Origin: Verrucomicrobiia bacterium
GTDB taxonomy: Bacteria > Verrucomicrobiota > Verrucomicrobiia > Limisphaerales > CAIMTB01
NCBI GenBank assembly: GCA_019634625.1
Contig: JAHCBA010000006.1
Span: forward strand, 124,001 to 188,000
Reading direction: 5' to 3'
DNA length: 64,000 bases
Shown piece after piece: positions 4,356-56,969 of this stretch. A program made the translations under genes and the position numbers. The notes beneath the pieces were generated by a model. It worked only from the letters and a program-made list of their open reading frames with translations, had not been told where the DNA came from and did no database searches. How positions within the stretch are numbered: the stretch's first letter is position 1; each line of letters opens with the position of its first letter.

Positions 4356-7252
4356 GCGGCGAATCCGTGATACTCGCAGGGCTTCAAGATACGTTCGCTC
4401 AGCAGGTTGCATCGAATGTCGTCGTTTACCCGGACAGCTTCCGAGAACTCCACGCCTCGATTCGATACATCTACGAGATCGGCAGTTTTCATCAGGACGT
4501 CATTCTGCACGAAGCGCCGCCGTCGCCACAGGCGTTCGGATTGTCAGACCGATCCCGGTTGGAGGTGATCACCGAGTTCGGGCCGGATACGCCGGAACCG
4601 GAGCGGTTCACTCGTTTCATTCGTGTGGAAGAAAACCCCGCGATCAGGCGCTCCATGGTGGAACCGGATTTCACGGATCACCTGCTCGTCTTTGGGCAGG
4701 AGATTCGGATGCTGATCGGACGGGCGTTCGCCCTTGATGAAGAGCTGAATGATGGCGCAGGCGGCGAGCCAGGGACGGAGATTCCCGTGGGAAAGGAGTT
4801 CCAGCGGATCGACGGCCGCACCCGTCTCATAGAGGGAGTTGAGTATCAGGCAATTGCGCCATTCCTCGAAGACCTGCCACCTGCGACAGCAGATTTGGGA
4901 GAGGCCACCCGAAACGGTGAGTCCATGGCATCCTCCGGACGCCTCGTGCCGGCGCGGATCGCGTCACTCGACCGCGGCCATGAGTTTGCTCGTCGTGAAC
5001 CTTCCCAGCGGGGCTTCGTGCTGGATTACGTGACCAAGACGGGCGGCGCGACCGACTTCAACTTTGTCTCCAAGGGCACCTACTACATCAGCTCCGGTTT
5101 CGGAGTGAGCGGGTACTCGATCGCCTTTGGGGAAGGCGCGGTGATCAAATACGCCAACAATGCCTACCTCTACCTTTACGGGCACTTCACATTCCCGTCG
5201 TCGGGCTCTCCGGTGGTGTTCACTTCCAAGGATGAGAATCTCTATGGTGAAGTCATCAGCGGCAGCACGGGCAGTCCCGCCCACATGGCCAATCCCGCTC
5301 TTTGGGTTTACTACGTCGATTTCAATACGGAGATTCGCAACGCCTCCGTCCGCTGGGCGAAGCAAGGAGTGGTTTACGACCAGAATCCCGGGGTGAGCGC
5401 TTCGCACTCCGTCCGGGATTCCAAATTCAAGAACACGCAGACCGGCGTCGTTGGTGGCTGGAACTCGCCGACGGTTTCGCTGACGAACATCAAGCGCTGC
5501 AACGTGACCACGCCCACCTCGGGCTGCTGCATCGGCGGGAGCATGACCCTCGATTGCGAGGGCGACAACGACTACGACGAACTGCCCGACAGTTGGGAGG
5601 TGACCTACTTCGGCAACACCTCCGCGCAGAACGGCCACGGCGATCCCGATGGCGACGGGTTGATCAACTTCAAGGAGTACCTGTTCGGAACCTCGCCGAA
5701 CCTGGCGGACAGCGATTCCGACGGCCTTGGCGATCTGCTCGAGTATGAACTGTCCTTCAACGTGCTCGTCAACAGCCCAGCCGCGGATTACGGCAAGGAA
5801 CAGAATTCGCAGTTCGAATCGACGTGTGCGGTCCTGAATGGAAATGTCGTGGTCGCCTACGTGGACTCCAACTCGGGTGTGTACGCTCTGGGGCAAAGCT
5901 CCCTCTTGACTTCCTACACACCGAGAATGGTCGGCTATGCCGTTTCGGAATTCGGCGGAGCCGTGTTTGTGGACAAAGGGGTTCCCCCGCTGAGCACGCA
6001 AGGCTCCGGCACCTCCGACGATGGCGATGCCGGAGACCCCGTGCTGGCGGTCGATACTACGGGATCGCTCGTCTATTTGGTGGGAACGTCTCCGCGCAAT
6101 GCGGGCCACAAGGGCATTCCCCTCTGGAAGTCCACAAACGGGGGCGTGAGCTTTGGCACACCTGCCCTCATCTGCGGTGACAAAACCCAGACCGACAAGC
6201 CCTGGATCACCGTCGATAATGCCACGGGCACCGGACAGCGGGATGTCTATGTCACGTTTACGACCTTTGGACCACCTCAGAAGCTGTGGCTGACGGTTTC
6301 GACGGACTACGGCGCCAACTGGAACACCATTCAGGAGATCGCGGCATCTGTGACCAATGGACAGGTCCAGTCAGCTATTCCGGTAGTCGATGCCAATCAC
6401 GTGGCGTACGTGTTTTGGCTCGATTCGCAAAGTGCGGGTGGCGGCGCCTACAACAATTACATCAAATTTCGAAAGGTGCAGAGTCGGGGCGCCAGTGTTG
6501 GGAGCCCCCAGCAGATCCTGCAAACGGTGACCACCGGGGAGGCATACGGGGATCTGGCCCTCAAGCGCAGCAACTCCTCGGCTTCGAACGACACCTTTCG
6601 CGTCTTTCCCTTTCCCGTGCCCGCAGCCAATCCGAGTTCCAGCAAGGCCGGCCATCTTTACGTCGCCTACGCGGACAAGGGAACAGGCAGTGACAGGGCG
6701 GATGTCTTCTTCGTGTGCTCCAGCAACGGCGGCGCAAGCTGGACCAGTCCCCTCCGCGTGAACAGTGTCGCCAGCAACGATCAGTGGATGCCGGTGATCG
6801 CCGTCAAGCCGGATGGCACCAGGCTGTTCGTCGCCTGGTACGACCGGCGGAATGACTCGTCCAACAACTCCCTGATCGACGTGTATGGCCGTTGGGGGAC
6901 GATTGCGAGCGGCGGCAGCGTGACCTTCGGCACCGAGTTTCGGATCACGACGCAAAGTTTTCCGCCGGTATTTGCGGGAACTTTGGCGGCGAACAAGACG
7001 AATGGCCATTACGATCCGGTTTATCCGCCGGGAGGTGTGAACCTTCACTGGCACTATCCGGAGTGGGATGACGACGTGCTCACCGTTACAGAACCGGCCT
7101 ATCAGGGTCATGTTGGCGAGTACAACGGCGCGTGGGCTGATAGCTCCTACGTTTACGTCACCTGGACCGATTATCGGCTCACAGCCCAAGGCACTCTTTA
7201 CGGTCGAAATCAAAGCGATATTCGATTTGCTCGACTGACTTGGCCCCAATAG
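4175..7252 (+). CDS. Secreted beta-helix / sialidase-like repeat protein, main body (frameshifted from its signal peptide)
   Basis: This frame carries most of the protein, but authentic coding probably begins only near 4300; the codons from 4175 to there overlap the upstream fragment and read as a shadow. It shows a beta-rich N-terminal region, a beta-helix-like stretch around 5080-5500 (YYISSGFGVSGYSIAFGEGA, NNAYLYLYGHFTF), then a calcium-binding TSP3/EF-like segment (DPDGDGLINFKEYLFGTSP, DSDSDGLGD). The C-terminal half has BNR/sialidase-like propeller repeats with Asp-box-like pieces (KSTNGGVSFG, STDYGANWN, SSNGGASWTS). Probable role is extracellular carbohydrate binding or hydrolysis. No sialidase catalytic arginine triad could be assigned. 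Without the upstream signal peptide the product would not be exported, so the gene may be dead. Confidence 0.7.
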   Translation: MGRSSRDRGRQWRDHSAAGELRGTVGRTELSRRDWNLAAHTAGDITLRSAPLALAYFDPVSGESVILAGLQDTFAQQVASNVVVYPDSFRELHASIRYIYEIGSFHQDVILHEAPPSPQAFGLSDRSRLEVITEFGPDTPEPERFTRFIRVEENPAIRRSMVEPDFTDHLLVFGQEIRMLIGRAFALDEELNDGAGGEPGTEIPVGKEFQRIDGRTRLIEGVEYQAIAPFLEDLPPATADLGEATRNGESMASSGRLVPARIASLDRGHEFARREPSQRGFVLDYVTKTGGATDFNFVSKGTYYISSGFGVSGYSIAFGEGAVIKYANNAYLYLYGHFTFPSSGSPVVFTSKDENLYGEVISGSTGSPAHMANPALWVYYVDFNTEIRNASVRWAKQGVVYDQNPGVSASHSVRDSKFKNTQTGVVGGWNSPTVSLTNIKRCNVTTPTSGCCIGGSMTLDCEGDNDYDELPDSWEVTYFGNTSAQNGHGDPDGDGLINFKEYLFGTSPNLADSDSDGLGDLLEYELSFNVLVNSPAADYGKEQNSQFESTCAVLNGNVVVAYVDSNSGVYALGQSSLLTSYTPRMVGYAVSEFGGAVFVDKGVPPLSTQGSGTSDDGDAGDPVLAVDTTGSLVYLVGTSPRNAGHKGIPLWKSTNGGVSFGTPALICGDKTQTDKPWITVDNATGTGQRDVYVTFTTFGPPQKLWLTVSTDYGANWNTIQEIAASVTNGQVQSAIPVVDANHVAYVFWLDSQSAGGGAYNNYIKFRKVQSRGASVGSPQQILQTVTTGEAYGDLALKRSNSSASNDTFRVFPFPVPAANPSSSKAGHLYVAYADKGTGSDRADVFFVCSSNGGASWTSPLRVNSVASNDQWMPVIAVKPDGTRLFVAWYDRRNDSSNNSLIDVYGRWGTIASGGSVTFGTEFRITTQSFPPVFAGTLAANKTNGHYDPVYPPGGVNLHWHYPEWDDDVLTVTEPAYQGHVGEYNGAWADSSYVYVTWTDYRLTAQGTLYGRNQSDIRFARLTWPQ

Positions 7253-7291
7253 GCGTTGCCTCGCAACGAAAACCCCAACCCGGCGAAAGCA

Positions 7292-7981
7292 ATGACTCTC
7301 CTCAAATGTGGAATGCTTGGCCTGCTCATCGCGCAGTCTGGACTGGCGCAGGGGTACTTTTCTTTTCGCAACATCTCGCGGGGAGATGGGCTTGACGCTC
7401 CGATTCTCGACGCGCGAGGAATCCCTCTCGAAGGAACCAACTATTTGGCCGAATTGTACGGAGGCGCCAGACCAGAGACCATGGCTCCCGCCCTGGCTGA
7501 GGTTCTTTGGCAGAGGGCGAGCGCGCCGCTAATAACTCGAGGGTACTTTGTGGGAAACGGTGTCCTCGTGCTTGACGTCGGAGGTGGAGGCTACGCCTGG
7601 CTCCAGGTGCGCGCGTGGGATGCACGGTTGGGTGCAACCTACGAGGAAGTCGTTGCCAGGGGATTGGGCGGTTTTGGCGAATCGCCTCTGTTCTACGCAC
7701 TCAGCGCGGCTCATGGACACCTGTCACTCCCAAGGCCACTGATTGGTCTGCAATCCTTTCGCCTCCGGCCGGCAACCGGTGTCCTGATGCGCGGAATCCG
7801 CCGCGAAGGCGATCAGGTGGTGGTCGAGTGGAACCCCGGGTTCGCGCGTTACCAGCTTCAGGAGACCGCCGCGGTGGGCCAGCCGTGGCAGGACGTGGGC
7901 GAGCCGACCACCGCCACGAGCATCACGAACACGATCGGCGGTACGACCCGGTTCATCCGGGTGATCGGGCTCTTGGAGTGA
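7292..7981 (+). CDS. Secreted protein of unknown function with shared C-terminal module
   Basis: About 229 residues. The ATG at 7292 is preferred over a TTG at 7256 because it opens directly into a Sec signal peptide (MTLLKCGMLGLLIAQSGLAQ). The mature protein begins with GYFSFRNISRGDGLDAPI and NYLAELYGG, a pattern I recognise from uncharacterised verrucomicrobial secreted proteins. The last 65 residues form a beta-rich module with the series VVVEW, YQLQE, then W, then TRFIRV near the end. It resembles the C-termini of three other proteins in this window (see findings). It starts about 40 bp after the frameshifted gene and could be co-transcribed. Function unknown. Confidence 0.75.
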   Translation: MTLLKCGMLGLLIAQSGLAQGYFSFRNISRGDGLDAPILDARGIPLEGTNYLAELYGGARPETMAPALAEVLWQRASAPLITRGYFVGNGVLVLDVGGGGYAWLQVRAWDARLGATYEEVVARGLGGFGESPLFYALSAAHGHLSLPRPLIGLQSFRLRPATGVLMRGIRREGDQVVVEWNPGFARYQLQETAAVGQPWQDVGEPTTATSITNTIGGTTRFIRVIGLLE

Positions 7982-8022
7982 GTTCGCGCAGCACACAGGT
8001 TCTCCCGGGTTCGGTGCTGGGT

Positions 8023-20169: not shown

Positions 20170-20928
20170 ATGGACCCCACGAACGCGAAAAAGTCACCGA
20201 GGCAGGCCTTCGCTTCCACCCACTGGAGCATGGTGCTGACGGCCGGACACAGCTCGATGCCGGGTGCGGCGGATGCGATCGAGACGCTGTGTCGCGCCTA
20301 CTGGTATCCGCTTTACGCCTATGTCCGGCGCCACGGGCATTCACCTGCGGACGCCGAGGACCTGACCCAGGAGTTCTTCGCCCGGCTGATTCGAAAGAAG
20401 CATCTGCGACTGGCGGATCCGGAAAGGGGACGGTTCCGCACCTTCCTGCTCACCTCCCTGCGCCACTTTCTCTTCAACGAGTGGGCCCGGGCCCGGACCG
20501 GGAAACGGGGACGCGGGCATGCCGTCGTCCCGCTCGATCCGCGGACGGCGGAAAGCCTTTACGCGAATGACGTCGAGGAAGGGCCGTCTCCCGAGGCCCT
20601 TTACGACCGGCGCTGGGCCGTGACCCTGCTCGAACGATCCCTGCGTGAATTGCGCGAGCGCTATGCCTCGGCCGGAAAGGCGGAACTGTTCGAGGTCCTC
20701 AAGGCCTCCGTGTGGGGTGCGAAGGGGTCGGCGCCGTATGGTGAACTCGCGACGCGGCTCGGCATGAGCGAGGGCGCCGTGAAGGTGGCGGTGCATCGGT
20801 TGCGCCGGCGCTTTCGGGATCTCCTGCGGACCGAGGTGGGCCGCACCGTCGGCCATCCCGACCAGGTGGACGGAGAATTGCGGGACTTGATGGCTGCCCT
20901 GGGCAACCGCCTCGAGACGCCGGGTTAG
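20170..20928 (+). CDS. ECF-type RNA polymerase sigma factor
   Basis: 252 residues from the ATG at 20170 (MDPTNAKKSPRQAFASTHWS). Region 2 is recognisable (LCRAYWYPLYAYVRRHGHSP, ADAEDLTQEFFARLI) with its DNA-melting part (GRFRTFLLTSLRHFLFNEWA). Region 4 carries the helix-turn-helix (YGELATRLGMSEGAVKVAVH, RLRRRFRDLL). A longer linker between the regions than in classical ECF factors is typical of the planctomycete/verrucomicrobial kinase-associated groups. No anti-sigma gene is adjacent; instead the Ser/Thr kinase starts 75 bp downstream, so phosphorylation is the likely control. Target promoters unknown. Confidence 0.92.
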   Translation: MDPTNAKKSPRQAFASTHWSMVLTAGHSSMPGAADAIETLCRAYWYPLYAYVRRHGHSPADAEDLTQEFFARLIRKKHLRLADPERGRFRTFLLTSLRHFLFNEWARARTGKRGRGHAVVPLDPRTAESLYANDVEEGPSPEALYDRRWAVTLLERSLRELRERYASAGKAELFEVLKASVWGAKGSAPYGELATRLGMSEGAVKVAVHRLRRRFRDLLRTEVGRTVGHPDQVDGELRDLMAALGNRLETPG

Positions 20929-21003
20929 CCCCGGGCCGTAACCTCCGGGGATATCGGCTGGAGATTCCGTCGTAATGCAACGCACCGAAGCGAAGGGTGG
21001 GTC

Positions 21004-24000
21004 ATGAACAAGAAGCAGGCCTGTGCCCGATGCGGCAATGCAATCAACGGGTTCGCCGCCGGGGATCTCTGCGCCATGTGCCTGCTTCAGGACGGCCTGA
21101 TGCCTTCCAGCCCACCGGAAGGGACCCTGCCATCCCGCTCGGGCGCGACAACGACCGACCGGATGGGGCCGCCGTTGCCGTGGGACGGCACGCAACGCTC
21201 CTCGTTTGGGGACTATGAATTGATCGAGGAAATCGCGCGTGGCGGCATGGGGATCGTCTTCAAGGCGCGACACCGAAGTTTGAACAGGGTGGTCGCCCTC
21301 AAGATGGTCCTGCCAGGCCGATCCGCCTCTCAAGGATTCATCGAGCGATTCCACACCGAAGCCGAGGCGGCGGCGCGACTGGATCACCCGCACATCGTTC
21401 CGGTCTATGAGATCGGGGCGCACGAAGGCCAGCACTACTACACGATGAAGCTGATCGAGGGCTCGACGCTGGCTGCACGTCTGGCCACCGGTTCCGGGCG
21501 GAGCATGGGACATGGGGCGCCGGCTTCGTCGCCCGACCCTCCCTCTGTCTGCCGGCCCGCGGAGGCGGCGGTGCTGGTGGCCAAGGTCGCCCGCGCCATC
21601 CATTGCGCCCACCAGCAGGGCATCCTGCACCGGGATCTGAAGCCGGCCAACATTCTCATCGACCAGCAGGGCGAGCCGTTCGTCAGTGACTTCGGACTGG
21701 CCAGAATCGCAGAGAAGGCGAGTGACCTGACCCTGACCGAGGCGGTTCTGGGCACCGCCAGTTACATGGCTCCCGAACAGGCGGCCGGCCAATCCAGGCA
21801 GCTCACGACCTCCGCCGACATCTACAGCGTGGGTGCGATCCTTTACGAATTGCTTGCAGGACGGGTTCCGTTTCGCGGACCCACCCCGATGGAGACCCTG
21901 CGCCAGGTGGTCGAGCGCAGCGTTCCATCACCTCGCTCGATCCGGCCGGCGGTGGACCCCGATCTCGAGACGATCTGCCTCAAGTGCCTCGAGAAGGAAC
22001 CCCGGGACCGGTATGGATCGGCCGAGGCGCTGGCGGATGACCTGGACCGCTGGCTGCGCCACGAGCCGGTCCTGGCCCGCCCGGCAGGCATGGCTGTCCG
22101 GCTGCGAAAGTGGGTCCGTCGCAGGCCGCTGGTCGCCGCATTCTCCGCCGCCATGGCGTCCGTGCTCGGGCTGGCCATGGGCGGAGTGTTCTGGCAGTGG
22201 CGCCGGGCCGAGATTCGCGGTGACCTGCTGCAACAGAAGGCCGACGTCATGCAAAGGACCCTCTACGCGGTGGAGATGAAGGCTGCCCGGCAGGCATGGA
22301 ACGACGCGCGAACCGGAGACGTGCTGGCCCTGCTCCGGAAATACGGTCCCGACAGCGGTCTCGAACAGCTTCGCGGCTTCGAATGGCGGCAGCTCTGGTG
22401 GCTTTGTCATCAGGAGCAGGCCACCCTCCAGAGTCACCAGGAATACATCTGCAAAGTCGCCTTCTCCCCCGACGGAACGCGGGTCGCCGCCGCTGGAGAC
22501 CGCGATGGCGTCATCCGGGTTTGGGATGTCGGTTCGCTTGGGCCGGTCGCCACCCTGGGAGGTCAGACTTCGTGGATGGGTTCCCTCTTCTTCCTCGATG
22601 ACAACCGGACCCTGGCGTTCGACCGCAATGATGGACGGCTCATGCTTTGGGACACCACCACGGCCCGGGCGGTCGAGATCCTCGACGGCCGACTCCGAGG
22701 CATGTGGCCATTGCGGCTCTCCCCGGATGGCCGCTGGGCGGCGGCGGTGGACCGGGCGCAGCCGCGGGTGCTCCGGGTTTGGGAGGTTGCCACCGGCCGG
22801 CAGGTCAGTGAGCTGGCCGGGATCGCCTTTCACAGCCCTTACATGCTCGATAACAGGCTCCTTTTTTCGGCGGACGGTTCAACGCTGGCCATCGCCCTGC
22901 ATGACAAATCGGTGCGGCTGCTTTCCGTCCCGGACCTGACCTCGGAGGTCCGGCTGGTCCTGACCGATCACGCGCGCTGCCTGGCACTGTCCCCCGACGG
23001 CACGCTTCTGGCCGCGGGTTTCATCAGCAGTCCCGGGATAGAGATCTGGGGGCTGGCCTCGCAGCAACGGCTTCACACTCTCCGCGGGCCGCACCACCCC
23101 CCCATGTTCGAACTCCGTTTCTCCCCCGACTCGACCCTGCTCGCCTCCTCGAGCTACGAATCCGTCGTCGCGCTCTGGAGTCTCGCCGAGCCGGAGCGCG
23201 AACGGGCCGGCTTCAAGGGACACCCCGAAGGGCAGGGCATCGCCCTCGCCTTCTCCCCCGACGGTCGGCTGCTGGCGAGCGGCGGCCGCGACGGTGCCAT
23301 CAAACTCTGGAACACCGATGTCAGCCCCGCTTCGCCCCTCGAAACCGCGCTGCCAACCGGCGCGTGGCAGGCGCGGTTCTCCCCGGACGGACGGACGCTG
23401 GCGGTGGCAGCCGACGGCGGCAAGGTGAAGCTCTTCGATCCCGTCAGCGAGGAATGGCTCGGAACTCTGGAGGATCCCGACGACACGGCCCCGCCCGCTG
23501 AACCCTACACGCCGCACTACCGGCCCCTGGCCCTTTCGCCGGACGGCCGGCTCCTGGCCATGGGCCGGGGCGATCGCACCGTCCTCGTGTGGGATTTCGA
23601 GACCCGGCAACTCCGGCACCGTTTGACCCACGACACCGGCACGGTGCTCTGTGTCGCCTTCGCACAGGATTCGAAAACCCTGGGCACCGCCGGCGACGAC
23701 CGCACACTCCGGCTCTGGGATGCGCGGACCGGGCGCCAGACCGGGGGGCTCGAAACCCGGGAGCTGGTTTACATCCTCGCATTCTCGCCGCGGGGCGGGG
23801 TCCTGGCCTACGGCGGATGGACCCGTCTGGCGGATTCGCAGCCGGTCACTCTGTGGAATTATGAAACAGCGCAACCCGTCGCCACCCTCCCCGACCACGC
23901 CGCCCCCGTGAGTGCCCTGGCCTTCTCCCGCAACGGCCAAACCCTGGCTTCCGGCGACGGCGACGGCATCGTCCTCCTCTGGAACCTCGATGACCTCCCA

Positions 24001-25624: not shown

Positions 25625-28294
25625 ATGAAATCGATTGATTTCCCTCCCGCCCGCCGCCCGATCCCGCCGCTCCAGGGTTTCCGCCTGTTCACCGCCCTCG
25701 GCTTCCTGGCCCTCGCCGCCCCAGCGCAGGAATTCGTCAATTTCGAGGGCAAACAGACCAATCCCATCCGTCTGTCCGCCGACGGCACCCGGTTGTTCGC
25801 CGTCAACACCCCGGACGCGCGGGTCTCGGTGTTCGATCTCACCCATCCGGCCACACCCAGGCTGATCGCCGAAATTCCTGTCGGCATCGAACCGGTTTCG
25901 GTCCATCCGCGATCGAACGACGAGGTCTGGGTCGTCAACGAGGTGTCCGACAGCGTCAGTGTCGTGTCGGTCTCACGTGGCATGGTCGTCGCCACTCTCC
26001 GCGTCAGGGACGAGCCGATGGACGTCGTCTTCGCGCGCGGCCGGGCCTTCGTGTCGGTTGGCCGGAGCCACGCGCTCGCCGTGTTCGATGCCGGGACACG
26101 GGAGGAACTCGATCGGATTCCCCTCCTCGGCCTCAACCCGCGCGCGCTGGCCGTCAGCCCGGACGGCAGCAGGGTCTATGTGGCATTCGCGTTGTCGGGG
26201 AACCGCACGACGATCATCCCGCGGGAGGAGGCGCCCGATCAACCTGGCCCGACCCGCATTCCGGACGCGCCGCCGAAGGTGGCGTTGATCGTGGATGCGG
26301 AGGATCCGGCCTGGGCGGATGAGATCCGGTACACGCTGCCGGACAACGACGTGGCCGAGATCGACGCGGATTCCCTCACGGTGACCCGCTACTTCAGCCG
26401 GCTCGGAACGGTGAACCTGGGCCTGGGCGTCCATCCGGGAGGCGGCCAGCTTTGGGTGGCCAACACCGACGCGCGCAACCGGGTCTTCTTCGAGCCGGCG
26501 CTTCGCGGGTACACTCATCTCAATCGAGTCACCCGCGTGGACCTCACGACCGGAGCGGCGACCCCGTTCGACCTGAACCCGGACATCGATTACGGCGTGA
26601 TGCCGAACCTCGAAGCCAGGGCCACCGCGCTCGCCCAGCCCACCTCCGTGGTCTTCCATCCGTCCGGAGACCATTTCTACGTCGCCGCGTTCGGGACCGA
26701 CCGTGTGGCCAGGGTCGATACACACGGGACGATCCTCGACCGGATCGAGGTCGGGGAGGTCAAAGGCGCCACTCCCGATCCGCGGAACAAACGCGGCCCG
26801 CGCGGCCTGGCTCTGCACCCGGACGGTTCCCGGCTCTATGTCATGAACCGCATCGCCAATACGATTTCCGTGATCGACACCGGCACCCGCTCGGTCGTCG
26901 GCGAGTTCCCAACGGGTTCCCATGACCCGACTCCCGAGACCATCCGCGTGGGGCGCGGCTTTCTGTACGACGCCCGGCTCTCGGGCAATGGCACTCTGTC
27001 CTGCGCAAGCTGCCACGTGGATGGGGAGATGGATCACCTTGCCTGGAATCTCGGGAACCCGGACGGCGAACTGCAACGGCTGACGGTCTTCAGGGGGGTG
27101 TTCCCCACCAGCACTCATCCTGCGCATCCCATGAAGGGGCCGATGACGACCCAGACCCTGCGCGGGCTGAAAGGAATGGAACCGCTGCACTGGCGCGGGG
27201 ACCGGGCCTCGCTTCTCGACTTCAACCCCGCCTTCGACTCACTCATGGGAGCCGAGCCGCTGGGCGACGAAGACATGCGGGCCTTCAAGGACTTCGTCGA
27301 GACCATCGCCTTTCAACCCAACCCCAACCGGAATCTCGACAACTCGCTGCCGGTCTCCCTCGCTGGCGGCGATCCGCGGGCAGGCCAGGACTTCTTTCGC
27401 AACACGGACTTCCTGGTCCCGGGGTTCGGGCCGGTCCGATGCGTGAGCTGCCATGCCCAGCCGACAGGTCTGGCCCTGCCCGGCTTCCGCATCACACAGC
27501 ACGATGGGATGGATATTGTTCAGCCCATGAAGATCCCGCATCTCCGCAACCTTTATCAACGGCTCGACTTCGATAACACCCCCGGTGCCATGAGCCTGTC
27601 CGGCTTCGGCCTCGAACACGACGGATCCAGGGCCGGAATTGCCCAGGCCCTGTCCGTCCCGCGCTTCGAAACCATCCGGAACGACGAAACGATCATCCGC
27701 AATCTCGCCGCCTTCCTGCTCGCATTCGACACGGGAACCCCGCCGGCCGTGGGCCATGACCTGACCCTCACCCGGGAAAACCTCTCCTCCCCCGCAGTCA
27801 TCAGCCAGTGGGACACGCTCGAACAGCAGGTCCAATCCAGCCGCATCGATCTCATCGCCAAATCCGATTTCGGAGCCCTGCTCTTCGATCGTGCGACCTC
27901 CGGCAGTTACCGTTCCGATGGGGAAGGGGATCCGTTCCGCAGCCGGCACTGGGTCGAGGAGCGCATTCGCGAAGGAGCCACGGTGACCCTCATGGGGGTT
28001 CCCGTTGGCTCGGGATGGCGTATGGCAATCGACCGCAATCTCGACGGAATTCCCGACGGGGTCCCGCCGCGCATCCCGCTTGTCGTCCGATTCCGGTCCA
28101 CGGGCGATGCGATCCACCTGTCGTGGGATGCCGAGGCGGATCGCGCCTACGCCGTCGATTCCTCGAATTCCCTGGAGCCGGGAAGCTGGACGCCGCTCGC
28201 CACCGGCATTGTCTCCCAGGAAGGTGCCGCGACCTTCTCCGACTCCCTCGCCGATCGCGGACCCGCCCGCTTCTATCGAATCCGCCACGACTGA
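25625..28294 (+). CDS. Secreted YVTN propeller - di-haem cytochrome protein
   Basis: 889 residues. The ATG at 25625 opens a signal peptide (FRLFTALGFLALAAPAQ); the longer frame upstream overlaps other genes. Residues about 45-450 form a YVTN-type propeller (VNFEGKQTNPIRLSADGTRL, VHPRSNDEVWVVNEVSDSVS, LHPDGSRLYVMNRIANTISV). A cytochrome region of the MauG/CCP kind follows with two haem sites, CASCH and CVSCH, and an RGLKGMEPLHWRGDR segment. The C-terminal 75 residues are the beta module shared with three other proteins here (AIHLSWDAEADRAYAVDSS, W, ARFYRIRHD). Probable role is periplasmic electron transfer or peroxidase-like chemistry. It converges on smc, with only 25 bp between stop codons. 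Confidence 0.87.
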   Translation: MKSIDFPPARRPIPPLQGFRLFTALGFLALAAPAQEFVNFEGKQTNPIRLSADGTRLFAVNTPDARVSVFDLTHPATPRLIAEIPVGIEPVSVHPRSNDEVWVVNEVSDSVSVVSVSRGMVVATLRVRDEPMDVVFARGRAFVSVGRSHALAVFDAGTREELDRIPLLGLNPRALAVSPDGSRVYVAFALSGNRTTIIPREEAPDQPGPTRIPDAPPKVALIVDAEDPAWADEIRYTLPDNDVAEIDADSLTVTRYFSRLGTVNLGLGVHPGGGQLWVANTDARNRVFFEPALRGYTHLNRVTRVDLTTGAATPFDLNPDIDYGVMPNLEARATALAQPTSVVFHPSGDHFYVAAFGTDRVARVDTHGTILDRIEVGEVKGATPDPRNKRGPRGLALHPDGSRLYVMNRIANTISVIDTGTRSVVGEFPTGSHDPTPETIRVGRGFLYDARLSGNGTLSCASCHVDGEMDHLAWNLGNPDGELQRLTVFRGVFPTSTHPAHPMKGPMTTQTLRGLKGMEPLHWRGDRASLLDFNPAFDSLMGAEPLGDEDMRAFKDFVETIAFQPNPNRNLDNSLPVSLAGGDPRAGQDFFRNTDFLVPGFGPVRCVSCHAQPTGLALPGFRITQHDGMDIVQPMKIPHLRNLYQRLDFDNTPGAMSLSGFGLEHDGSRAGIAQALSVPRFETIRNDETIIRNLAAFLLAFDTGTPPAVGHDLTLTRENLSSPAVISQWDTLEQQVQSSRIDLIAKSDFGALLFDRATSGSYRSDGEGDPFRSRHWVEERIREGATVTLMGVPVGSGWRMAIDRNLDGIPDGVPPRIPLVVRFRSTGDAIHLSWDAEADRAYAVDSSNSLEPGSWTPLATGIVSQEGAATFSDSLADRGPARFYRIRHD

Positions 28295-35269: not shown

Positions 35270-36781
35270 TCAGGGATGCTGGCGTACCCGGTAAAACTGT
35301 CGTCCTTCACTCCCGATCGGATCGGAGAACTCAACCCAGCCCGTGTCGTTGGTGATCGACCCCACCGTCGTCCACTCCCCGACAGGTGCAACCACGTCAT
35401 TCGCCCTCAACACTTCGAACACCAGACCGGGATCGCTTTGGAGCACGAACCCCAATCGCCCGTCCACGATGCGCGGACTGCGCAGCCCGGGTTCCCCATG
35501 CACCTCCATCCGCGCATGGTCGAGGTTCCAGTACCCTCCCGCCAGCTCCGAACTCACTGTGGACAGCACCTGGAGCCCGATCCCCCTGCCAGCCCAGGCA
35601 TCCGTGGACCTCACGGGCGCCGTGCGCACCCGGAAGTCCGTCAACCGCTGCCGGGACGGAAACGTGGCCGCGGTGTGGGTGACCACGGTCGTGGCAATCC
35701 ATTGCCGCGCTCCCTCCTCATCCCGGTAGTACACCCCCAATTCCAGCGTCGCGCCCTCCTTCATGCCACCCCCGCCCCCCTGCACCCCGAGCGTCAGCTC
35801 GTAGGACCGCCCCGCTTCAAATCTCCCGGCAAACGCCGCTGCCGCACCTTCCGCCGTCTCGTGAGTCGAGGTCTCATCCAGATAAACACCCACCGATGGA
35901 ACCGCGAAAAGGTAGAAGGCCTGGTCCCCGTCCGCATTCTCCAGGTGGTCGTCCTGTCCCGGTTCGGTGTTCCTGAACACCCCGCTGAGCTGGTCCCACG
36001 TGAATCCCCCTGCTTCCTCGTACCAGGATGGTCGGGGGGTCTTCTGCCAGGAGTCCACACGGTTGTCCACAAACGCGGTCACTGGCGATTCAAACGAACC
36101 GTTCGGGATTTCGATCCCTTCGACGAGGCGGACATGGTCGATCTCCCAGTAGCCCCCGGCGCGCCCCGGATCGACCGTCGAGAGGAACCGGATCCCCATC
36201 GGCCGGCCACTCCAGGCGTCGGTGGAACGGACCGTCGGGACCCGCAACCCGACGTCCACCAACTGCTTCGGGTTCGGGAAACGGGACGGATCGTGGACCA
36301 CGTTCGTCGCGGCCACCACCACCTGGCCTCCGTCGGCACCGCGATAATACAGGCTCATCTCGATGGAAGCGCCCGGGGCCATGCCGCCGCCGCCGCCAAG
36401 CATCCCCGCAGTCAGATGGTAGGATTTCCCAATCCCAAACGTCGCCCCCGCGCCAACCGCGTCCTGGAACAAACCCGCTGCCGGGACCGCGAACAGATAC
36501 AGCGCCTGCACCCCGTCGAGATTCCCGATCCGATCCGGTTCGCCCGGTTCCGGGTTCCTGAACACGCCTGTCAACTGGTCCCAGCCAAACCCTCCGCTCT
36601 CGTCGTACCCAACGGGCCGCGCCGTCTTCTGCCAGCCGTCGATCCGCGTCTCCACAAATGACGTGCCGGGCGACTCGAAGGATCCGTTCGGGACGAACAG
36701 GGGCTGGGCGCAGACGGACGCCGCGGTCGCGAGGACGGACCCCGCAGAGGCTATCCAACGATACAGGCTGTACTCACGCAT
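35270..36781 (-). CDS. Secreted protein with two tandem carbohydrate-binding-like domains
   Basis: 503 residues from the ATG at 36781 (an ATG at 36799 adds six). A signal peptide is seen (YRWIASAGSVLATAASVCAQ). The body is an internal duplication of about 200 residues. Each half starts with NGSFESP, continues with SWQKTPRPSWYEEAGGFTW or DGWQKTARPVGYDESGGFGW, QLSGVFRNTEPGQ / QLTGVFRNPEPGE, and LGVQGGGGGMKEGA / AGMLGGGGGMAPGA. The fold suggests galactose-binding-like modules, similar to domains found on secreted PVC proteins. The C-terminal 70 residues are the shared module (LGFVLQSDPGLVFEVLR, EWTTVGSI, RQFYRVRQHP). No catalytic motif. Likely extracellular binding protein. Confidence 0.8.
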   Translation of the reverse strand: MREYSLYRWIASAGSVLATAASVCAQPLFVPNGSFESPGTSFVETRIDGWQKTARPVGYDESGGFGWDQLTGVFRNPEPGEPDRIGNLDGVQALYLFAVPAAGLFQDAVGAGATFGIGKSYHLTAGMLGGGGGMAPGASIEMSLYYRGADGGQVVVAATNVVHDPSRFPNPKQLVDVGLRVPTVRSTDAWSGRPMGIRFLSTVDPGRAGGYWEIDHVRLVEGIEIPNGSFESPVTAFVDNRVDSWQKTPRPSWYEEAGGFTWDQLSGVFRNTEPGQDDHLENADGDQAFYLFAVPSVGVYLDETSTHETAEGAAAAFAGRFEAGRSYELTLGVQGGGGGMKEGATLELGVYYRDEEGARQWIATTVVTHTAATFPSRQRLTDFRVRTAPVRSTDAWAGRGIGLQVLSTVSSELAGGYWNLDHARMEVHGEPGLRSPRIVDGRLGFVLQSDPGLVFEVLRANDVVAPVGEWTTVGSITNDTGWVEFSDPIGSEGRQFYRVRQHP

Positions 36782-36867
36782 ATCTGCGCAATCCTGCATG
36801 AATGAAACCCCGTATCAAGCGCCGGACCGCCCATGGCCATATCGTCAAGGCACTCCGCCCCCACCCC

Positions 36868-55346: not shown

Positions 55347-56969
55347 TCAATCCGGATCGATTCGGGCACGGAAGAAGGAGGGCCCGGCGTGGACGGCCTC
55401 GATCCGGGTGGTGTGCCGGCCGTCCGGCCCCAACGTCACGCGGTCCGAAAGGCTCCAGGAATTCAGGTCCGTGGACGACTCGATGCGATAGCGGGCACCG
55501 GGTGAGCCGGTGAGTTCGAGGGTGACGACGGGGCCGGGTTCGGGCCCATTGATCTGGAGGGTTGGGGGCGTGACGGCGGTGATCCGGTGACGTTCCAGGG
55601 CGCGAGCGGCGTTCAGGCGCCCGCCGGTGCGGACCTTGCCCTCGAGCGAGGGATGGCGATCGACGGTGTCGAGGACCCCTTCGATGAGTTCGGAGTAGGA
55701 GCAGGTGGGGCATTCCGCGGCGAGCAGGGCGAGCGTGCCGGCGACGTGGGGGGCGGCCATCGAGGCGCCGCTGGCGAGGCGGTAGGATGCGTCACTGGCG
55801 CTCCAGGTCGAATGGATGAGTTCGCCGGGGGCGGCGAGATCCACGGAGCGGAGTCCATAGCTCGAACTGGCGGCGAGGCCGCCCGAGCGGGTGGAGGAGG
55901 CGACGGCCACGACGTTCGCGGCATCGAAGGCGGCGGGATACAGCGGGTTGCGGTCGAGGTCGGCCGATTCGTTGCCGGCGGCGGCGACGAGGATCATGCC
56001 GGCGGCGCGGGCCCGGTCGATGGCGCGGCGCAGGGACTGGGACCGGGCGGTGCTTCCCCAACTGGCGTTGACGATGCGGGCGCCGTGGAGACGCGCGTAG
56101 TCGAGGCAGCGGACGGCGTCCGAGGTGGCTCCCTGTCCGTCGTCGCCGATGAACTTGAGGGCCATCAACCGGACCCGCCAGGCGACCCCGGCGGTGCCGA
56201 TGCCGTTGTTGCCGACGGCCCCGATGATGCCGGCAACGTGGGTGCCGTGACCCTGGGTGTCGGTCGGATCGCCGGAGCCATTGATGCCGTTGATGCCATG
56301 GACGTCATCGATGTACCCGTTGCGGTCGTCATCGCGGCCGTTGCCGGCGATCTCGCCGGGATTGACCCAGAGGTTGGCGGCGAGGTCTTCGTGGGTGAGG
56401 CGGATCCCGGAATCGATCACCGCCACGATGACGTCTCCGGCGTCGGTGCGGACGTCCCAGGCCTGCGGGGCGCGGATGTCGGCGGGGCGGGTGGGATCCG
56501 GGGGGAACCGGTCGTGCAGACTCCAGGCCCGGCCGGACAGGAAATCCGGATCGTTGGGATCGCGGGTGGTGCGGATGAGGTAGTCGGGTTCCGCGAATTC
56601 GACGAGGCGGTCCCGTTCGAGGCGGCGGAGGATGTCGTCGAGGCGGCTGCCCGCCGGTTTGCGGACCACATGGAGGTCGCCGAGGGCGGGGTGGCGGCGG
56701 AGGACCTCGGCGCCGTGGGTGCGGCACCACTGATCGAAGGCGCCGGGGGGAAGGTCGGCCCGGGGCACGACGATGAGCCGATCCGGGACGTGCGGATGAC
56801 TGAGGTCCCAGGATTCGGAGGTGGCCGCGACGGCAGCGAGGGGGAGGGAGAGGGCGAGGCGCAGGACGACCGCGAGCCCGAGCGTGACGGCCAGGGGCGA
56901 ACGAGGCGTGGTGGTTGGGGAGGACGAGGGATTCTGGAGGGGCGGCCTGGGTTCGGAAGGAGGGCTCAT
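55347..56969 (-). CDS. Secreted subtilisin-type serine protease (S8) with C-terminal module
   Basis: 540 residues. The N-terminus has a signal peptide after an unusually long polar start (VTLGLAVVLRLALSLPLAAV). An inhibitor-type propeptide follows (PDRLIVVPRADLPPGAF, LHVVRKPAGSRLDDILRRL). The protease domain has all three catalytic residues: Asp in VIVAVIDSGIRLTHED, His in TQGHGTHVAGI, and Ser in GASMAAPHVAGTLALL, with the oxyanion Asn region VAAAGNESADLD. The last 65 residues are the shared beta module (VVTLELTGSPGARYRIESST, DLNSWSLSD, SFFRARIDPD). Autoprocessing and secretion are expected. A calcium-site insert (WVNPGEIAGNGRDDDRNGYI) is typical of PVC subtilases. Confidence 0.92.
   Translation of the reverse strand: MSPPSEPRPPLQNPSSSPTTTPRSPLAVTLGLAVVLRLALSLPLAAVAATSESWDLSHPHVPDRLIVVPRADLPPGAFDQWCRTHGAEVLRRHPALGDLHVVRKPAGSRLDDILRRLERDRLVEFAEPDYLIRTTRDPNDPDFLSGRAWSLHDRFPPDPTRPADIRAPQAWDVRTDAGDVIVAVIDSGIRLTHEDLAANLWVNPGEIAGNGRDDDRNGYIDDVHGINGINGSGDPTDTQGHGTHVAGIIGAVGNNGIGTAGVAWRVRLMALKFIGDDGQGATSDAVRCLDYARLHGARIVNASWGSTARSQSLRRAIDRARAAGMILVAAAGNESADLDRNPLYPAAFDAANVVAVASSTRSGGLAASSSYGLRSVDLAAPGELIHSTWSASDASYRLASGASMAAPHVAGTLALLAAECPTCSYSELIEGVLDTVDRHPSLEGKVRTGGRLNAARALERHRITAVTPPTLQINGPEPGPVVTLELTGSPGARYRIESSTDLNSWSLSDRVTLGPDGRHTTRIEAVHAGPSFFRARIDPD

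Follow-up and report, generated by a model that had tools for sequence, protein, structure and literature searches.

An unnamed C-terminal domain of exported verrucomicrobial proteins, comparable in position to a sorting tail

Four copies of one module in the window

The window analyzed here, a stretch of 64,000 nucleotides from a Verrucomicrobiia bacterium whose genome comprises 6.74 Mb in 88 contigs, encodes four proteins that end in the same module. Its limits are approximate for all four copies. The features are listed below, with E values from a profile that leaves the window out.

7292-7771, plus strand: signal peptide and core of the protein ending at 7981; in relatives, this core usually has a PEP-CTERM tail
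7778-7978, plus strand: C-terminal module of the protein ending at 7981, the shortest of the four (E 9.2e-7)
28076-28291, plus strand: C-terminal module on a beta-propeller and di-haem (CCP_MauG) protein, likely CDS 25625-28294 (E 3.5e-16)
35273-35485, minus strand: C-terminal module of a protein with HpiC1-like domains, CDS 35270-36799 (E 3.5e-12)
55350-55568, minus strand: C-terminal module of a subtilase (Peptidase_S8), CDS 55347-56969 (E 3.9e-12)

Upstream of the module, Pfam identified CCP_MauG in the protein ending at 28294, PF22825 in two stretches of the product of CDS 35270-36799, and PF00082 in that of CDS 55347-56969. The first-pass annotation had aligned these four C-termini by eye through a common Trp and a final motif of the RFYR type, and both their places and their motifs were borne out. 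The leave-window-out profile, built from 138 copies of the same genome minus all window copies and one near-copy, recovers exactly these 4 of 586 window frames above background, the next best frame having an E value of 0.48. Pairwise identity among the four modules is only 15-25%. Across the 138 copies, conservation is highest at the second Arg of R-[FY]-[YF]-R (96%) and at the Trp (95%); further constant positions are the aromatic pair preceding this Arg, and a Tyr/Phe and a Glu/Gln in the third strand. A conserved stretch of 7-10 residues is absent from an alignment of 44 members.

None of these 44 representative members gave a convincing match to a Pfam or NCBIfam model. Such a domain is not described in the open-access papers searched, and its name is likewise absent from Pfam and NCBIfam. 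The results support a distinct, unnamed C-terminal domain of about 70 residues. Sorting tails as a kind are already known, and what appears to be new here, judging from sequence, is an unnamed C-terminal domain family that resembles them in position.

Occurrence, position, and carriers

The module had initially been described as shared by four unrelated proteins. Their upstream parts do differ, but the number proved to be a large understatement. A first profile of 11 members gave at least 139 matches in the same genome (150 of 415 candidates scored), and at least 130 frames with the module were found in the fetched regions after iteration. In an 820 kb sample chosen irrespective of the module, it is present in 22 of 542 called genes (about 4%), as against none of the reversed proteins of the sampled genes. 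Across the phylum, it was detected in 47 of 115 sampled genomes (E up to 1e-5), with up to at least about 50 copies per genome among the matches listed. In another phylum, that of a Solibacteraceae MAG, one of 60 genomes has it.

As first proposed, copies of the module typically end their proteins. At most 15 residues separate the last copy from the stop in 109 of 130 frames, and at most 5 in 87 of them; in 6 frames, the last copy lies 16-40 residues before the stop, and in about 15 it lies further inside. For other genomes, the distance to the C-terminus is at most 15 residues for 31 of the 32 best copies, this set including one row from the genome studied here and two rows of one acidobacterial genome. 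One internal copy follows shortly after the signal peptide in a protein of 2015 residues, and tandem arrays are found at the protein end in L122 (five copies), L052 (three), and L099 (three). L064, L067, L104, and L119 each have an Ig-like stretch of similar sequence (TSP..GE.GVSVTRETVVRFS) behind an internal module; they form a paralogous family with a non-terminal module.

The first-pass annotation had viewed the module as a secretion, anchoring, or sorting tail. The part of this proposal that stands is a distinct C-terminal domain on exported proteins; the tandem arrays of 3-5 copies in three frames and the internal copies (about 15 of 130) argue against a pure or obligate tail signal. The main rival to a sorting tail is a general accessory domain of Fn3-like type, adhesive or ligand- or glycan-binding, which would be C-terminal mostly by domain shuffling and would carry no sorting information. 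We consider this possible but doubtful. Fn3-like domains often serve as spacers or in binding. The existence of internal and tandem copies speaks for such a role, as do the conserved Trp and aromatic residues and the similarity of positions 7-56 to the discoidin-type binding domain of a glucanase/chitosanase of known structure (profile match, E 6e-6). However, a plain binding domain needs neither the closeness to the stop seen in the 87 frames nor a constrained last residue.

This constraint is apparent from the composition of the protein end. Among the 109 terminal carriers, the last residue is Pro, Arg, Glu, Asp, or Gln in 100, with Pro accounting for 53, whereas Ala and Gly never occur and Val occurs once. 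The corresponding background frequencies for other genes are 18% for Pro, 16% for Arg, 13% for Ala, 9% for Gly, and 5% for Val. Other genomes show a similar picture, with Pro as the last residue in 16 of 30. The bias relative to background indicates that the very end of the protein is under constraint, and the free C-terminus itself seems to matter. The same composition, and its recurrence in other genomes, would also suit a C-terminal protective cap, in which a small, stable sandwich with Pro or a charged residue at its end shields exported proteins from periplasmic tail-specific proteases. Such a cap is nevertheless very unlikely: it leaves the near-invariant Trp and Arg and the internal copies unexplained, module-free proteins manage without one, and the end-residue bias may merely reflect the end of a beta-strand. 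In the 820 kb sample, Pro is also the commonest last residue among non-module genes, with the 18% given above as against about 9-11% at each of the five preceding positions.

The carriers are diverse. A scan of the parts preceding the module, to a length of at most 460 residues, found 83 Pfam families in 113 proteins. The 25 commonest of these families include TSP3 repeats, Big_9, lamin tail, Ig, cadherin-like, LamG, PKD, RCC1, LRR_5, Calx-beta, and FG-GAP, the commonest being extracellular types (TSP3, Ig, cadherin, LamG, PKD, RCC1). According to a simple heuristic, signal peptides are present in 13 of 22 module genes versus 101 of 435 others (p = 5e-4), which bears out the link to signal peptides expected at the outset; by eye, the start is probably miscalled in several of the nine signal-peptide-negative module genes. 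These data support a module that is appended to exported proteins of many architectures. It can also be missing from homologs: L139, the acidobacterial ortholog of the protein ending at 28294, is 50% identical to it and stops just before the module. In the viral-contig subtilases L176 and L177, which are relatives of the 55347 protein, the C-terminus does not look module-like by eye.

Exchange with PEP-CTERM tails

The genome also encodes a PEP-CTERM system, with 11 PEP-CTERM matches above the curated cut-off and five exosortases. Six module proteins, including the one ending at 7981, have matches to the cores of the PEP-CTERM proteins encoded there, as against only 2 of the 435 other genes; one of these two itself codes for a PEP-CTERM protein. 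L251, one of the two nearest relatives of the 7981 protein, shares 44% identity with it over 169 residues that end in LIGLQS-F/Y-x-LRP. In the 7981 protein, homology ends with LIGLQSFRLRP (about 7771), and the module follows immediately. Past this junction, L251 continues with VPEPSTWAL..., whereas the 7981 protein continues with the module.

The core of the 7981 protein was found in 76 of 146 genomes by an order-level search; a phylum-wide search, in which close relatives are hardly sampled, found it only in the genome studied here. Among 66 distinct complete relatives of the core, 46 have a PEP-CTERM tail, 14 the module, and 6 another end; when no more than 130 residues follow the core, the numbers are 46, 9, and 4, respectively. 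As relatives were sampled by closeness to a four-sequence profile and PEP-CTERM tails were assigned by a simple pattern, these proportions are approximate and not unbiased. A tree of 63 cores requires five tail changes, at least two of which are forced by starred branches, and the 7981 protein falls within a starred clade (96) together with 11 PEP-CTERM proteins. These results support the view that, within one protein family, the module and PEP-CTERM replace each other at the same junction, as judged from the sequences compared. The comparison with PEP-CTERM tails made in the first-pass annotation thus holds as far as position is concerned, and such a replacement is not what a general accessory domain would lead one to expect. 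The description of GlyGly-CTERM relied on the same kind of argument, from alternative tails on homologs (PMC3237569). What the swap shows is that the two tails are equivalent in position; it does not show that they are equivalent in function.

Two observations concern the surroundings of these genes. A PEP-CTERM gene adjoins a module gene three times, at G000:C7:155536/156313, C11:92786/93579, and C3:40439-43042/43249-44001; the PEP-CTERM protein at C3 is matched by those at C7 and C11, and this may be a conserved gene pair. In addition, window positions 6852-8014, which contain the 7981 gene, are 98.8% identical to G000:C12 about 20593-21755 (L051:1459-2621) over at least 1163 bases. This match is a recent duplication, whose length is a minimum because it is cut at the end of the locus.

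At the level of the phylum, exosortase is distributed more broadly than the module, being present in 80 of 115 genomes. Most genomes with the module have an exosortase, as do many without it, and G046, which has two strong module copies, is absent from the exosortase list. This distribution does not single out a partner for the module and is not decisive.

Predicted fold, possible role, and known counterparts

Two window copies were modeled separately with AlphaFold, each with the same three sequences; a three-copy alignment was used because MAFFT applied to the four window copies alone misplaced the Trp. The copy at 28076-28291 was predicted to form six strands (pLDDT 89.3), and the copy at 55350-55568 the same six strands in the same order (pLDDT 87.9). 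The nearest solved folds are Fn3- or Ig-like. The alignment to monobodies spans chain residues 4-75 (Z 6.4-6.9), which we take to be Fn3 strands A to F, and its ending at strand F indicates that strand G would be absent. The sequence agrees, since R-[FY]-[YF]-R corresponds to the last strand and is followed by only a few residues in most proteins. The tandem modules of L052, which are about 77 residues apart, also leave little room for a seventh strand. The module is thus predicted to be a compact Fn3/Ig-like sandwich of six strands, in which strand G is missing and which extends to the C-terminus. Because sandwiches of this type commonly give Z values below 8, the similarity would denote a fold class rather than a relationship. 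That the module is a partial discoidin (F5/8 type C) fold instead of a reduced Fn3/Ig domain might be suspected because the profile matches discoidin domains in solved structures of glucanases (E 6.3e-6). This is scarcely credible, as the match covers 50 residues only and PF00754 is touched by just one of the 44 members (E 0.075), whereas both AlphaFold models are compact six-strand Fn3/Ig-like sandwiches with matches over all 72 residues.

For this family, which is biased toward the C-terminus, attached to exported proteins, and exchanged with PEP-CTERM tails, the reading that we find marginally probable is that of a folded C-terminal sorting or surface-anchoring tail, which would serve as an alternative to the PEP-CTERM/exosortase tail. 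A carrier would cross the inner membrane by means of its signal peptide, and the tail domain would fold in the periplasm. An outer-membrane or surface component that exports the carrier or holds it would then, we infer, recognize the face with the near-invariant Trp and Arg, the open edge of the last strand (RFYR, the pairing site of strand G), or both. Precedents exist for secretion information in such folds: the signal for T9SS export is a C-terminal sandwich of Ig-like type (PMC4804311), and part of a type II secretion signal resides in the Fn3 domain of the pectate lyase Pel3/PelI (PMC7949064). A more specific proposal, which we regard as unlikely, is that the module is the export and surface-display signal of an undescribed outer-membrane route that runs parallel to exosortase and serves at least 100 proteins per genome in the phylum. 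The sandwich lacking strand G would be completed in trans by a strand of its receptor, as pilins are by chaperones; this donor-strand completion is speculation prompted by the missing strand alone.

Protein sorting in this bacterial group is poorly known, and PEP-CTERM accounts for only part of the exported proteins. The module may represent an unrecognized way to direct such proteins to their destinations. A domain found on more than 100 proteins per genome would help to annotate many 'hypothetical' proteins, and one that is positionally interchangeable with a sorting tail would give a handle on the machinery behind it.

Several known systems can be compared with the module. First, in Fn3 monobody/Tencon structures, strands A, B, C, C', E, and F align with it over the chain residues given above, but strand G is missing from the module according to both the prediction and the short distance from RFYR to the stop; the fn3 Pfam model gave no match in the 44 members at E up to 1. 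The best fold match is the Fn3-like domain of PelI/Pel3 (3b8y, 4u49), with 68-69 of 72 residues aligned, Z 7.2-7.6, and an rmsd of 2.4. This domain is N-terminal whereas the module is C-terminal, identity is 16-19%, and such Z values are shared by many sandwiches.

PEP-CTERM tails (TIGR02595; exosortase PF09721) resemble the module in lying at the same junction behind homologous cores, in accompanying an N-terminal signal peptide, and in being numerous per genome, and the two coexist in the genome studied here. By contrast, the module is a folded domain of 70 residues, 2-3 times longer, rather than a motif followed by a membrane helix and a basic end. Its assignment as a PEP-CTERM tail was rejected, since its C-termini have no helix or PEP motif and end in a predicted strand; TIGR02595 was not among the NCBIfam matches of the 44 members.

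Finally, the T9SS tail (TIGR04183, Por_Secre_tail) is likewise an Ig-like C-terminal beta-sandwich of about 70 residues, found on exported proteins with varied upstream parts, present in tens of copies per genome, and having its last strands at the protein end (PMC4804311). It has seven strands as opposed to the six predicted for the module, which also occurs internally and in tandem. TIGR04183 gave no match in this genome at E up to 10, whereas control genomes did match, and it was not among the NCBIfam matches of the 44 members at E up to 1; membership in the T9SS tail family was rejected on these grounds. SprA (PF14349), representing the T9SS translocon, was matched in none of the 115 genomes, but the control genomes gave no match either, and the absence of T9SS tails from the fold matches listed excludes nothing. 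The module is probably best read as an analog of the T9SS tail family rather than as one of its members.
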